IMG/VR virus record: IMGVR_UViG_3300025000_000033
Location: 1 to 42,203 of that record
Length of the DNA stretch: 42,203 nucleotides
Direction: 5' to 3' (one strand)
DNA from: a virus
The position numbers and the translations under genes are program-made. The notes beneath the pieces were generated by a model that saw nothing but the letters and a program-made list of their open reading frames with translations, made no database searches and was not told where the DNA came from. Below are positions 12,049 to 40,234 of the stretch, one piece after another. Numbering within the stretch: the stretch's first letter is position 1; each line of letters begins with the position of its first letter.

Positions 12049-13788
12049 ATGAAGAAATACTTATCTTGGATCTTGTTTATACTATTTGCTTTCACTACTA
12101 CTTTTGCTGCATTTAGGACAGCACAACGATCTACATACGATATGATAGCAAAAAGATTTCTATTTACTTCTGACTGAACAAGTGGGGGAACTTCTGTATT
12201 AGATATAAATAGTGGTTGAAACACTATTGTTTATTGAAGAATAATGAATAGTGGTTGAGTAGACTATATATTTTGATCATGAACTAATGATAAACTTTGT
12301 ATATGGACTGGTGGTTGAGTTTCCTGTCAAACAGATATGATAACTTGACTTGTAGAATCAGATCCTATTTGGAACTCAGAAAGCTGAGATTATATACTTT
12401 GGACAAGTGTTTCTACTGATACTTCTTGATGAAGTTCTGATATTCTAGTTATGAGCCAAAATGCCGTTAGTTGATTTGTAAATTCGAAAGCATTTCTACT
12501 TAGTTGAAACAATATTATTACTGGAGATACTATCTATAATTGATCAATATCTGTATCGTGAGATTTTATTATAACCTGAGATGCTGTTTTTAATTGAGAT
12601 GTTTATTATACACTGAATACTTATTATTCATGAGATACTATATATACAGGAACAACAACATATAACTGAGATACTTATTATATATGAAACTCTTATTTCT
12701 CAGGAAATAATGTATACACAGGAACTAATACCTATAATTCTTATACATACTTTAATGAAGATTTATTCATTCTAGGAAATATAATCCAAACAGGCGATAT
12801 TTACTTAGTCTGAAATGTTTATTTCTCAGGTAACAATATCTACACTGGTACTAACTACTATTTCTGAGATAATTATACATACTGAAATACTTATCTATCT
12901 TGAAACCTTGTAGTAACAGGATCTATTACTGATTGAGCAGGAAACCTATATATTACATGATATACAGAAACCGATCCAATATTTATGGCTAATAGTTGAA
13001 ATTATGCTGTTTTGGTATGAAATAATAATTTTTCTTGAACCCAAAATATAACATGACAATTATTGGTTAATTGAGAAATCGTTGTTGATTGATATACACT
13101 AGAACAAACAATAAATAATATAATTAGTTCTGATGCATATATTGCTTGACGTTCTCCTGATTATTTTACTGTATTATATGATTTTGAGTCAACAAATAGT
13201 AAATTTTCTACAGATAATATGTGATATATCCCATTTGTTACAGCAAATACGCTAACATTACGTGATCCATGAGGAACTAATTCATTCTGATTGGTATCAC
13301 AAAGTAGGGCTTGTGCTTGATTATGAATAACTGATTGTCAGAGTGCTATGGTATATTCATGAAATGTTTGGGTATATTCATCTACTTCAAAAAAATTATG
13401 AAAAGCTTCTATATATACAGATATATCTAATGCAACTAATTGGAATACATGAATAATATTCTCATGATATTCAATGCCAGCTAGTTCGTATATTGTAGGA
13501 GTAGATGCTAATAATCGTATATGATTTACACAAACGAACACATGATTAGTTATGTTTTATGATATGTGAACTTATTTATTATATGATGAAACACTATATT
13601 TTGATACTACTTTATCTACAGCTTTTTTGGGAAATTATTGAATTGGTTATTTATCTTGATCTAAACCATACTTATCATCTCTTACATGATCTCTAATAAA
13701 ATTCAAAGATGTATCAGGTACACAAGTGCGAGGAACACATAATAAATTATATTTAACTAATGCGGATCTATGTATTTCATTTTATTAA
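12049..13788 (+). CDS. Signal-peptide-bearing repetitive beta-rich protein (cassette copy 1)
   Basis: 579 aa. Residues 1-20 (MKKYLSWILFILFAFTTTFA) are a clear export signal: basic start, hydrophobic core and an A-x-A-like end. Residues about 150-310 consist of short repeats of the type YYSGDTIYTG / YFSGNNVYTG, which suggest a stacked beta fibre. The C-terminal part is a less repetitive beta domain with a few cysteines. A signal peptide is odd for a tail protein. It may be exported to the host surface, or it may be a fibre whose N-terminus only resembles a signal. The gene at 15529 is its positional counterpart. Confidence 0.7.
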
Positions 13789-13798
13789 AAACCAAAAC

Positions 13799-14455
13799 AT
13801 GATACTATGATTATTCCAAACAGTGCAAGATTCTATAAAGTTCCTCGAAAAGAAGAAATACAGTATTTGAGATAGAATAATAATAACCTGAGAAGAACAA
13901 ACAACATACGAACGGACAGGAAATATGCGACAAAATATAATCTGAATCTATCTACAATGAAAAGATTGAGAAGATTGACTTCCTTGAAAACCTTGAAAAC
14001 GTGCAGAAGAAGTGAATCTAAAACTATTAGAGAACCGTATATATGAAAGACTAAGGGATGATCAATGATTCATAAAAAAATGTGAGGGAAAGAAATGAGA
14101 TTCGATAAAATGAGATCCTGGAGAAACAATAATACCAAATATCAAAGAAATTGTTGAAATTCTATTGAAAAAGCTTATAGACAATAAAGAATTTATAGAA
14201 AAAGTTACACCAAAACCTTGAAAACCTGGTAAGGATGGGAAAACACCAGTAAAATGAATAGACTATTTTGATTGAGAAGATTGAAAAACACCAGTAAAAT
14301 GAGAGGATTATGATGACTGAGTAGATTGAAATGATTGACACAAATTAGTATTTATTGAAGATCCTAATAATGTTAATCTAAAACCTAATGAGTTCTGAAT
14401 AGATATAAATAAAAATTTCTATATCTACAGAAATAATTCAATTCTTAAATTGTAA
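13799..14455 (+). CDS. Collagen-like tail fibre/adhesin
   Basis: 218 aa with two collagen-like Gly-X-Y stretches, near residues 63-78 (GKDGEDGLPGKPGK) and 140-180 (KPGKPGKDGKTPVKG, with DGKTPVKGxDYxDG repeated). Most of the repeat glycines are TGA codons, so the repeats vanish under the standard code. Between them is a helical segment (IKEIVEILLKKLID). Collagen-like shafts with the TPVKG motif are common in phage receptor-binding fibres. It lies directly upstream of the first HNH gene element. Confidence 0.75.
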
Positions 14456-14538: not shown

Positions 14539-15015
14539 ATGGCTCAATACTGAAAAACACATTGAATGACTTGAACAAACTTTTATAACAGATGGAAACT
14601 ATTAAAAAAAAGATGTAATAATATAAATGATCCTCGTTATAAATGGTACTGAGAACGCTGAATATTTGTTTGTGATAAATGGAATAAATTTGAATGATTT
14701 ATGGAAGATATGTATGAATCGTATATAGAACATCGTATTATATACTGAGAACAAAATACAAGTATAGATCGCATAAATAATAATTGAAACTACTGTAAAG
14801 AAAATTGTAGACGAGCAACTAAAAAAGAACAGATGAGAAATACCAGTAGAAATTATAAAATAATACAACAAGATTTAAATTGAAATACTATAAAAATATG
14901 GAATAATAGAGTGGATATAAAAGAAGAATGATTTAATATATGAAATATTCGATCTTGTTGTAACTGAAAAAGAAATAATGCTAATTGATACATACGAAAG
15001 TATTTTACAATTTAA
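14539..15015 (+). CDS. HNH homing endonuclease (free-standing)
   Basis: 158 aa, with the typical phage HNH layout: a helical start (NFYNRWKLLKKRCNN), KWYGERGIFVCDKW, then SIDRINNNGNYCKENCRRAT (D77 and R78 in the metal-finger core) and KKEQMRNTSRN. The C-terminal 40 residues (IKIWNNRVDIKEEGFNIGNI) look like a DNA-binding NUMOD-type repeat. It sits between appendage genes and is not inside an intron that I can see. Such genes are selfish elements that spread by cutting alleles lacking them. It is preceded by element E1. Confidence 0.85.
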
Positions 15016-21763: not shown

Positions 21764-22027
21764 ATGACAACATAGAATCAAGACACTAGCATAGAATTTC
21801 AAATACACGATGAATCATATAAGTTATGATATAGAGATTGAATTACTAAAATCCAAGAATGATTAGATTATTATAAAAATAATTTATCTATCCCAGTAAG
21901 TAAGATTGAAGAACTAAAAGAATGTTATAAATTAGCATATGAAAAATACAATCTACAACAACAATTTATGGTTAAATGATTTCTAATGGACTTAGATGCT
22001 TTATTACATAATCAAACCAATGCTTAA
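21764..22027 (+). pseudogene. Small gene with in-frame TAG at codon 4
   Basis: The frame opens with ATG ACA ACA TAG (TAG at 21773-21775) and then stays open for 83 more codons to TAA at 22025-22027. It reads as 87 codons including the TAG, with a coherent helical protein after it (IHDEHSYK-like start, KIQEGLDYYKNN, KLAYEKYNLQQQF). The ATG lies 3 bp after the previous stop and the end overlaps the next gene by 8 bp, as expected of a real operon member. A CAG/CAA to TAG change, a sequencing error, readthrough, or a non-ATG start downstream are all possible. Confidence 0.55.
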
Positions 22028-22211
22028 CAAATGTACCGATAGAACCATCTGTAATAGAACAGACTTAATGGCTAATGACTGAGAATACATAACAAGAGAA
22101 ATACTAAAGAATAAATGTAGTTCAGAATGTATAAATTTATCTACTTGTCATAGAATAGTAGAATTGTTAGGTCAAAAGAAATGGGAACAAGCACAAGATT
22201 TACTAAAATAG
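22020..22211 (+). CDS. Cysteine-rich small protein, family A (copy 1)
   Basis: 63 aa, with cysteines in the pattern C-x5-C, then C-x3-C-x6-C (NKCTDRTICN; NKCSSECINLSTCHRIVELL). The protein at 23248 has the same layout (NCKDRSICGNNLMAN; HCDKTCSQISICFRILDFL), so the two are paralogues. The start overlaps the previous stop (ATGCTTAA) and gives the best match to the paralogue. The spacing suggests a small zinc-binding or redox-active domain. Confidence 0.65.
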
Positions 22212-22236: not shown

Positions 22237-22812
22237 ATGACTGATACTAATAAAAATTGCGACTCCTGCAACTCCTGCGACTCCTGCAACTCCTGCGACT
22301 CCTGCAACTCCTGCGACTCCTGCAACTCCTGCGACTCCTGCGACTCCTGCAACTCCTGCGACTCCTGCAACTCCTGCGACTCCTGCAACTCCTGCGACTC
22401 CTGCAACTCCTGCAACTACTGCTACTCCTGCAACTACTGCAAGAATCTTAAAATGACAGAATATAATTATTTCTGTAGTGCGAAAAAATACAATGACGAA
22501 AATTCTTTTCAACAGAAAAGATATAGAGTATTTAATACACAAATAACTAAAGAAGAATATGAAAGAATACCTAAGATATATAATAAACTAGAATTTGATA
22601 AAAATGAATCATATACTACCAGATTCAAAACAGCATTCAAGAAAATGTGGAATAAATTAGATAGTAAATGAAGACAACAATACCTTGATATACCGCACTT
22701 CAATGCAGAAATATTTGAAGATATTACAGGTATAGAAATAAACGATACAGAAGAAATGACGTTAGAGCAGATTTGTAAAGAACTTGGCAGAAATATAAAG
22801 ATTATAAAATAG
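22237..22812 (+). CDS. Cys-Asp/Asn-Ser triplet-repeat protein with conserved C-terminal domain
   Basis: 191 aa. Residues 8-68 are an uninterrupted three-residue repeat: C at every third position, 21 in all, separated by DS or NS and near the end by NY or YS. The remaining 120 residues form a soluble charged domain (FNTQITKEEYERIPKIY, RFKTAFKKMWNKL, YLDIPHFNAEIFEDITGIE) that looks like a folded phage domain of unknown role. No signal peptide. Such a regular Cys ladder could bind many metal ions, form a flat disulfide or thiol ladder, or be a slippage-expanded linker. It is flanked by other Cys-rich genes. Confidence 0.7.
22258..22440 (+). repeat. Coding tandem repeat, 9/18-bp unit
   Basis: The 18-bp unit TGCGACTCCTGCAACTCC (two 9-bp halves differing at the middle codon) repeats for 183 bp, with one doubled CDS half and altered last units (TAC for TCC). 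It is distinctly more GC-rich than the surrounding sequence. Lengths that are multiples of 9 keep the frame, so copy number can change without breaking the gene. Confidence 0.9.
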
Positions 22813-22824
22813 ATTTACTTCGTA

Positions 22825-23028
22825 ATGAATAATATGAAGCCTTGTATCCCACACCATTGAATTGAGAAATGAGAATCTTATGTACACCTAAAAGATAAGG
22901 TTGGTATAAAGACTAAACAAGAACTATTAGATGTATGTGGTAATTGTGAAAAATATCTATCTTGCGACTATGTATTGAGATTGTTTACGCTTTTATCTGT
23001 TAATGAAAAGAAATGACATCAAGAATAG
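22825..23028 (+). CDS. Cysteine-containing small protein, family B (copy 1)
   Basis: 67 aa, with NMKPCIPHHG at the start, then LLDVCGNCEKYLSCDYVL. The protein at 23456 shares the layout (KKTCIPKRYES; LLEICNNCDDFLCKTAYDL). The C-x2-C-x5-C cluster suggests a small metal-binding site. It overlaps the next gene by 16 bp. Confidence 0.65.
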
Positions 23029-23267
23029 GACACTCTCCTGAGTGAAGGATATTGCAAGAAGAACATTACATATGGAAACAACAACCTGAAATCCATAAAG
23101 AGCTATGTGATTGTTTATGTCAAGAAAATAAAGCCAATATGATAAACATTAGAAACTGAAACCCTGAGAAGCTAAAAGAAAGAAGCGAAAAATATAGAAT
23201 AGAATATCTCAGAAGGATTAAACACGTTTTATTTGATATACTAGACGATGACCAAGAAACTAAATAA
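23013..23267 (+). CDS. Small helical protein, unknown
   Basis: 84 aa, charged and helical (KLKERSEKYRIEYLRRIKHV), with a C-x-C-x-C-like pair (LCDCLCQEN). It overlaps the gene before by 16 bp and the gene after by 20 bp, a sign of translational coupling. No family recognised. Confidence 0.55.
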
Positions 23268-23463
23268 CTGTAAAGATCGCTCTATCTGTTGAAATAATTT
23301 AATGGCAAATAACTTTGATTACGTAAATAGTGAATATATCAAAGAACATTGCGATAAAACATGCTCACAGATCTCTATTTGTTTTAGAATACTAGATTTT
23401 TTGAAAGAAAAAAATTCCAAAGAAGCATTAAAAATTTTAATTGAGAATGATAATAATGAATAA
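23248..23463 (+). CDS. Cysteine-rich small protein, family A (copy 2)
   Basis: 71 aa, paralogous to the protein at 22020: both have a C-x5-C start, LMAN, a central Y.(T/N)xE(Y/I), and C-x3-C-x5/6-C followed by a RI.(D/E)(F/L)L helix. It overlaps the previous gene by 20 bp and the next by 8 bp. Likely a small metal-binding protein; role unknown. Confidence 0.65.
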
Positions 23464-23641
23464 AAAGACATGTATTCCAAAAAGATATGAATCTGATTGA
23501 AAATTTTGAGTACATATACAAGATAAAACTCAAATAGATACAGAAAAGAAATTGTTAGAAATTTGTAATAATTGTGATGATTTCTTGTGTAAAACTGCCT
23601 ACGATTTAATTGTATTACTTAAAGCAAATAATATTAAATAA
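23456..23641 (+). CDS. Cysteine-containing small protein, family B (copy 2)
   Basis: 61 aa, paralogous to the protein at 22825 (TCIPKRY start; EICNNCDDFLCKTAYDLIVLL). Its start overlaps the stop of the family A gene (ATGAATAA). The A-B order in both places suggests that an A/B pair was duplicated around the triplet-repeat gene. Confidence 0.65.
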
Positions 23642-37082: not shown

Positions 37083-37784
37083 ATGTGAGAACACGACAAG
37101 CTAACATCAGGCATAAATGATGAAGAGCTTTGATCAGGCATAAATGATCAAGACTTGGACGAAGATTTCGACCAAGATGAAGATTTGGATGAGGATCAAG
37201 ATCAAGATGACGATCAAGATGATGATGAAGATCATGATCAAGATAAGAATCAAGATAAAGATGATCAGAAACCAAAGCAACCTGTTGATTGGAAGAAAAA
37301 GTTCTATCAAACAACTAATCTACAAAATAGACAGTTGAATGATCTGAAAAAAGAAATCAATCAATTAAAAAATTCAAAGACACTCAGCGATGAGGATTTG
37401 AAAAAGATCAAAGAGAAGTATGATGAAGAAGATCTAGGTATTATCGAAAAGATAATAGAAAGAAAAGCTAATGAAATATTAGACACTAGGCAACAAACAT
37501 CTCTTGCACAAAGAGAAATGAATATCTTCTTGAAAGAACATCCTGAATTAGATGAACCTGAAATCAAACATATCAAATCTTTGCAAAAAGAATATTGATA
37601 TAGTCTGAAAAAGGCATACACAATCTTATTTGGAAGAAATGATTCTGATAGAGATATAAAACAAAAACCTAGACACTCAATATCAAATAGTTTTTGATGA
37701 GATAATAACAACAGATCCTCTAAACAAAATGCTTCTAAAGAAGATGAGAAAGCTTTCAAAGATATGGATGCATTCTTGTCATAA
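37083..37784 (+). CDS. Acidic scaffolding protein candidate
   Basis: 233 aa. Residues 20-65 are an extremely acidic low-complexity run of Asp, Glu and Gln (DEDFDQDEDLDEDQDQ). Then a helical domain with coiled coil (NDLKKEINQLKNSKTLSDED; KIIERKANEILDTRQQ), and a short end with EKAFKDMDAFL. An acidic N-terminus, helical body and location directly before the capsid gene are what phage scaffolding proteins show. It would guide prohead assembly and then leave. Confidence 0.7.
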
Positions 37785-39733: not shown

Positions 39734-40234
39734 ATGGAAATTCGAAAACCAATAGAATGATATGAATGATTATATGAGGTGTCGGATTTATGAAATTTTA
39801 AATCATTATCTATAAATAGATTATTAAAACCACGAAAAGATACATGATGATATAATCAAGTAAATCTAAAATGAAAAATATATTTAGCACATCGTATAGT
39901 TGCAAAAACCTTCATAGAAAACATTGAAAATAAGGCTACTGTAAATCATAAAAATTGAATTAGAAACGATAATAGAATAGAAAATTTAGAATGGTGTAGT
40001 TTTAAGGAAAACATTAAACATTCTCGAGATAAATTATCAAGAAAGAATATTTCTTGATGAAAACATTATAAAAGTAAAATAATACATCAATATTCACTAA
40101 GCATGGAATACATAAGATCATGGGAATGTTTACATGATATAACTAGAGAATTATGATTTGATTTTAGAATTATATCAGAACATTGTTTATGAAAAAGAAA
40201 ATGATGATATGGTTATATATGGAGATATTGATAG
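39734..40234 (+). CDS. HNH homing endonuclease with NUMOD4 domain
   Basis: 166 aa. Residues 1-45 are a NUMOD4-type start (EGYEGLYEVSDLGNFKSL), followed by the HNH core YLAHRIVAKTF, VNHKNGIRNDNRIENLEW (H72) and ENIKHSRD. The C-terminal 60 residues (SLSMEYIRSWECLHDITREL, RKGGYGYIWRYG) look like a DNA-binding helix module. A free-standing selfish endonuclease inserted between structural genes. It is preceded by element E2. Confidence 0.85.

Follow-up and report, generated by a model that had tools for sequence, protein, structure and literature searches.

The stretch of DNA analysed here (the window, comprising all 42,203 bases of IMG/VR virus record IMGVR_UViG_3300025000_000033) encodes a small protein with cysteine at every third residue of its N-terminal part. 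Related cysteine ladders are present in many unrelated phages, and in proteins that share the domain following a ladder, pentapeptide or hexapeptide-like repeats can be found in its place. On balance, the ladder is probably a rod-like module of triplet repeats that replaces pentapeptide solenoids, its core position being taken by cysteine and its surface diversifying.

The ladder gene and its relatives

The gene occupies positions 22,237–22,812 of the plus strand, from an ATG at 22,237 to a TAG stop at 22,810–22,812, and encodes a protein of 191 aa if TGA is read as glycine (code 25). With translation table 11 the product ends after 144 aa, at the TGA at 22,669–22,671, which is Gly145 in table 25. 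The 191-aa reading is considered right because open frames of at least 150 codons cover a fraction of 0.14 of the window, rising to 0.78 once TGA is a sense codon. Glycine is preferred to tryptophan since the TGA of relative L141, located between HFNWE and FTYITGI, aligns with a glycine codon of relative L143.

The cysteines noticed in an earlier note on this DNA are genuine: in the TGA=Gly reading, 21 of them occupy residues 8, 11 and so on to 68, filling all 21 register positions and none of the 40 off-register positions, a pattern far beyond chance. The ladder (residues 8–68, 22,258–22,440) is encoded by a 9-bp tandem array, delimited by TRF at 22,258–22,442 with 20.6 copies and 88% matches. 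The two spacer residues (D/N/Y, then S/Y) are mostly Asp-Ser or Asn-Ser, with the last few differing (N-Y, Y-S, N-Y); the ladder contains nine aspartates and no basic residue. It is followed by a junction, or cap (residues 69–111, 22,441–22,569; KNLKMTEYNYFC...QQKRYRVFNTQITKEEYERI), conserved in all relatives, and by a C-terminal helical domain (residues 112–191, 22,570–22,809; W..L.....IP.F...F..ITGI), of which a homologue forms the C-terminus of the pentapeptide-repeat phage proteins in phrog_14105.

A family search with the region after the ladder as a query yielded at least 27 loci, including the window. The 27 loci have a common architecture, comprising a short start, a ladder of 6–34 cysteines, the junction and a small helical domain, so a whole family shares what the earlier note had envisaged as one possibility, a repeat scaffold joined to a C-terminal domain that is conserved. 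The junction motif is C-x-[GN]-L-[RK]-M ... QQK-Y-V-FN-x-x-[TS]-KEEY, and is also written, for the 27 loci, as C-x-[GND]-[LI]-[RK]-M-[ST]-E ... F-C ... Q-x-x-x-x-x-FN. No repeat-free member was found among them, and 492 of the 498 internal register positions are cysteine. Spacer variation is position-specific (N/D/Y/S at the first position, S/Y/F at the second); Asp is common and Lys/Arg are rare. TGA is a sense codon in L141, L142, L144 and L156, as in the window, and others use the standard code. One member, L151, belongs to a Saccharibacteria assembly; the 5.5 kb that it has in common with viral contig L143 are identical, so this is probably a viral contig that was binned there. Given the variant code and L151, the hosts are inferred to be probably Patescibacteria. 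A tblastn search of the phage collection with the window C-terminal domain gave zero matches, and annotated relatives were reached solely via L091. The first viral match, L003, was rejected as a ladder relative, since it aligns over the last 27 residues only and has no ladder; many matches to the cysteine pattern were likewise discarded, being simple DNA repeats read in arbitrary frames.

The window protein also matches the phrog_15341 profile (E 7.5e-9, residues 7–74 to profile positions 44–112; E 2.0e-11 in a second search). This group, which includes Campylobacter phage proteins CP21_166 and CPt10 gp169, likewise has cysteine at each third residue, over 22–76 positions, and is encoded by small genes that are early or scattered and, in some phages, present in multiple copies. 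Its members carry a cap at the N-terminus, Y-x-D-S-D-N-N-K-W or MKTQIF...GCWNC, and their ladder DNA is non-repetitive, whereas the window protein lacks such a cap and has a near-uniform array; the match begins at profile position 44 and is confined to the ladder, the cap (profile 1–40) being absent. In large environmental phage contigs (L167–L214, e.g., IMGVR_UViG_3300037172_000055 and 3300030508_000015), many paralogous ladder genes are dispersed, each with a different ladder behind a constant N-terminal cap, RWYDENNNSW.

Another match to phrog_15341, Vibrio phage 1.238.A gp68, was deposited as an 'insect antifreeze protein', and deposited annotations of phage ladders invoke this family (PF02420/IPR016133), which has a likewise Cys-rich solenoid of small-period repeats. 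Insect antifreeze proteins have a 12-residue repeat, TCTxSxxCxxAx, containing Thr and Ala. This 12-residue Thr/Cys/Ala repeat is absent from the window protein, which did not match PF02420 at E up to 1 in a Pfam scan. In Flavobacterium phage FL-1 (KY421186.2, L149:900–1900), gene APZ82901.1 was deposited in the wrong frame (VAPIAP...); the cysteine-ladder frame starts with MKTQIF..., and the 'HCRAGW' domain described below follows in another frame, so the ladder gene holds a frameshift, either real or from sequencing. These two labels are doubtful. The window protein is thus a variant of a ladder kind already deposited, for which no published description was found; the view in the earlier note that such a phage protein had not been described stands as far as published descriptions could be found, and fails for the databases (phrog_15341, 1.238.A gp68, FL-1). 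The genome papers on CP21 (PMC4546147) and CP220 (PMC2853527) describe DNA repeat regions; the text of the former, searched for cysteine, and that of the latter, searched for Cys-rich and antifreeze terms, do not mention these proteins. Another paper, which covers 'cysteine-rich repeats' in eukaryotes as well as phage sites, deals with a different, longer repeat (PMC7379824).

Beyond phages, the phrog_15341 profile has matches in 25 of 287 Patescibacteria genomes, mostly in proteins of about 570 aa with tandem paralogues. Several of the same proteins were recovered with a profile of the phage junction from which the cysteine repeats had been left out, and an hhalign comparison of the phage junction with the Patescibacteria cap gave a probability of 96 and E 4e-9 over 26 columns. 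It is the second half of the window junction that these proteins share. A profile of the proteins' own cap found matches in 38 of 380 genomes (about 10%), reaching 19 or more per genome, in tandem paralogues (L244–L292). No Pfam or NCBIfam model matches this unannotated, multicopy family. As in the phage ladders, cysteines are spaced by multiples of three (160 of 189 spacings in 23 divergent representatives) and are followed by C-x-[GN]-L...K-Y-x-x-x-N-x-x-x-S-K-E-E-Y. In contrast to the window protein, the ladder is degenerate, with cysteine at only part of the core positions and mostly S, L, V, G, N or I at the others; there are two caps per protein and extra zinc-ribbon-like ends, and the genes are chromosomal and multicopy. 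The phage and Patescibacteria junctions are likely to be of common descent.

Exchange with other repeats and possible fold

The window C-terminal domain matches phrog_14105 with E 8.8e-7 (profile 214–284), and that of relative L128 with E 3e-12. Members of this group, such as WMU95219.1 of phage AR1086-1, have the same FN...W...IP.F...ITGI domain after a repeat region; unlike the window protein, they carry an N-terminal DUF7666 and/or NTG pentapeptide repeats where the window has the C-x-x ladder. The window-type domain was found with Pentapeptide_2 repeats in Clostridioides phage AR1086-1, Roseobacter phage CRP-811 and faecal phage MT835533; an artificial consensus probe, corresponding to no natural protein, recovered the same three phages as an earlier search. 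The relationship is distant (21–30% identity to the window domain). The proposal that homologues of the C-terminal domain might carry different N-terminal repeats was borne out. Neither the window protein nor its ladder relatives match PF00805 or PF01469 in Pfam, and PF01469 is absent across the whole 42,203-base record.

Two further domains, unrelated to that of the window and to each other, behave similarly. The HCRAGW domain (phrog_31265) follows cysteine ladders in L020, L054, L223, L227–L233, L235 and others (L020, L054 and many of L218–L239 constitute its ladder loci); on a Bordetella plasmid it is combined with PF00805 (ADLxx) pentapeptides and not with a ladder. In L089 and L203 the 'GCFxG' domain accompanies ladders, and in Bacteroides phage BF766P1 its partner is a hexapeptide-like repeat. 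That three unrelated domains each accept either kind of repeat is the main reason for regarding the ladder as the functional counterpart of a solenoid. To judge from these architectures, it appears to behave as an interchangeable rod-like module, the exchange being one of position and not a proof of the same fold.

According to the proposed explanation, the protein would be a repeat-rod adaptor encoded in the early or replication region. Its N-terminal ladder would be a module of triplet repeats, folded most likely as a narrow solenoid; each triplet would contribute one stacked core position, occupied by cysteine, and two spacer residues forming the outer surface. The ladder would lead into the conserved cap and the small helical domain, and would occupy the place of pentapeptide or hexapeptide solenoids in related phage proteins. 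The surface may be altered through fast turnover of the array and selection for different spacer residues. Such diversification would fit a module that binds a variable partner from the host or its defences.

A more far-reaching reading, put forward tentatively, is that C-x-x units represent an unrecognised class of solenoid, found in phages of several bacterial phyla and in the multicopy Patescibacteria family, with a fast-rewriting binding surface that replaces pentapeptide repeats. It would add a protein repeat unit of very small size whose fold can be tested and would join the unexplained PHROGs 15341, 14105 and 31265 as one modular system; rewriting of the array in an otherwise unchanging gene would point to an interface under strong diversifying pressure.

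The narrow solenoid, already suggested in the earlier note, is favoured indirectly by the module exchanges and gains nothing from prediction: AlphaFold2 gave block-mean pLDDT values of 77–91 for residues 101–170 of the window protein and of about 27 over most of the ladder. For a distant relative with a W-D-N-N-W cap, pLDDT was about 92 in the cap and 38–58 in the ladder. No solved structure resembling the ladder protein was matched; Foldseek returned a single weak match (E 0.04), whose target is a phage protein labelled 'Pentapeptide', and a VIA-align structure search returned none. A lag-4 (four-triplet) signal in the Patescibacteria family is suggestive, and shrinks under a column-preserving null; in the phage ladders it is not significant.

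The main rival, to which a minor but appreciable probability is assigned, is a metal or cluster scaffold, in which thiolates at regular intervals bind Zn, Cu or Fe-S clusters and folding is driven by the metal; the protein would then serve as a metal sink or as a rod stabilised by metal. The spacings CxxC and CxxCxxC are frequent in metal sites, and the near-invariance of cysteine in the phage ladders would suit ligation, as would the unfolded ladder in AlphaFold2 models, which contain no metals. Weak PDB sequence matches are to zinc-binding CXXC domains and similar proteins (E 0.045 or worse); however, no metallothionein, ferredoxin or other metal-binding Pfam family was found in the window protein at E up to 1. 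The S, L, V, G and I tolerated at Patescibacteria core positions fit packing better than ligation, and the exchange, in three contexts, for pentapeptide repeats, which are free of metal, speaks against metal binding as the common function.

An unlikely alternative is a DNA-mimicking rod that, like the pentapeptide proteins Qnr and MfpA, would inhibit gyrase or a restriction enzyme. The acidic window ladder, the scarcity of Lys/Arg in the spacers of the family and the pairing of its C-terminal domain with pentapeptide repeats elsewhere are compatible with mimicry; nevertheless, the many Arg spacers in large-phage and Flavobacterium-type ladders indicate that a negative surface is not conserved. 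A redox buffer, or a disulfide-crosslinked, antifreeze-like rod outside the cell or in the virion, is slightly less probable still: the thiol content is high and relatives bear the antifreeze label, but PF02420 is not matched, no signal sequence is apparent and the gene lies among replication genes, outside the tail and capsid cluster.

Selection and turnover of the array

Ladders encoded by mixed codons in non-repetitive DNA were found in cultured phages. In Campylobacter protein CP21_166, 73 of 76 register positions are cysteine (TGT 55, TGC 18), and mean 9-mer identity is 0.56; in Vibrio phage 1.238.A gp68, cysteine occupies 23 of 24 (16 TGC, 7 TGT). Such codon usage shows purifying selection on the cysteines, and the ladder is more than the product of a single DNA repeat, because the cysteine pattern is retained in relatives whose DNA is non-repetitive.

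In the 27-member family, minority spacer codons amount to 389 non-synonymous and 12 synonymous cells, a ratio that is descriptive because the units are copied and the cells are not independent; by codon type, the figures are 112 and 7. A similar picture, with homogeneous third bases and varied residues, is seen in 21 paralogues from large phages.

The number of units changes rapidly between some close relatives. L228 and L230 have identical coding flanks (126/126 and 384/384 nt) and 25 and 28 units, respectively, and L223 and L237, also with identical coding flanks (126/126 and 366/366 nt), have 30 and 50, although these are metagenome contigs, so assembly error is possible for any single pair. 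Nearly all the ladder differences in these two pairs are amino-acid-changing variants. Unit numbers are equal in L134/L135, L138/L139 and L143/L151, as well as in L141/L142, which differ in three spacer codons. In-frame change in array length, anticipated in the earlier note, was thus seen between the ladder genes of relatives rather than between strains of this phage.

Neutral slippage, in which a 9-bp repeat would stay open in frame by chance, the reading against which the earlier note had weighed its own, can draw on the DNA uniformity of the window array and the shifting unit number, and is nonetheless very improbable, since the ladder is kept in 27 of 27 members with no repeat-free member found, mixed-codon ladders retain their cysteines and spacer variation is overwhelmingly non-synonymous.

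A variable protein of a diversity-generating retroelement was also considered and rejected: a PF00078 reverse transcriptase is absent from the 42,203-base record (which is possibly incomplete), and most arginine codons of the large-phage ladders are AGA, which breaks a third-base-fixed (NNT) rule. L141 and L142 are 99.5% identical over 4 kb, yet the C-terminal half of their ladder gene is locally divergent, with 17 non-synonymous and 9 synonymous differences in 104 codons, as if recombination had replaced it.

Genomic surroundings

DnaD-like, Erf-like and exonuclease genes and terminase are encoded downstream of the ladder gene, and methylase and nuclease genes lie near the ladder genes of some relatives. 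An early, intracellular role of the ladder protein is likely from this location. Comparison of the relatives' neighbourhoods revealed no constant partner gene beside the ladder.

The ladder gene is enclosed by a duplicated cassette of small cysteine-containing ORFs (about 65–71 aa) of two kinds, each present twice (21,996–22,211, 22,825–23,028, 23,248–23,463 and 23,447–23,641). The ORFs at 21,996 and 23,248 are 38% identical, and that at 22,825 resembles that at 23,447 by eye; the three searched against PHROG gave no match.

Elsewhere in the window, the protein encoded at 13,760–14,455 contains collagen-like G-x-y stretches (GKDGEDGLPGKPGK, GKPGKDGKTPVKG) and is probably tail-associated. Judged by eye from their translations, the ORFs at 14,539–15,015 and 39,734–40,234 look like HNH-type homing endonucleases. 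The protein encoded at 37,083–37,784, directly upstream of the likely major capsid gene, has an acidic DQDED repeat (18-bp array, 37,188–37,264) and is possibly a scaffold protein.
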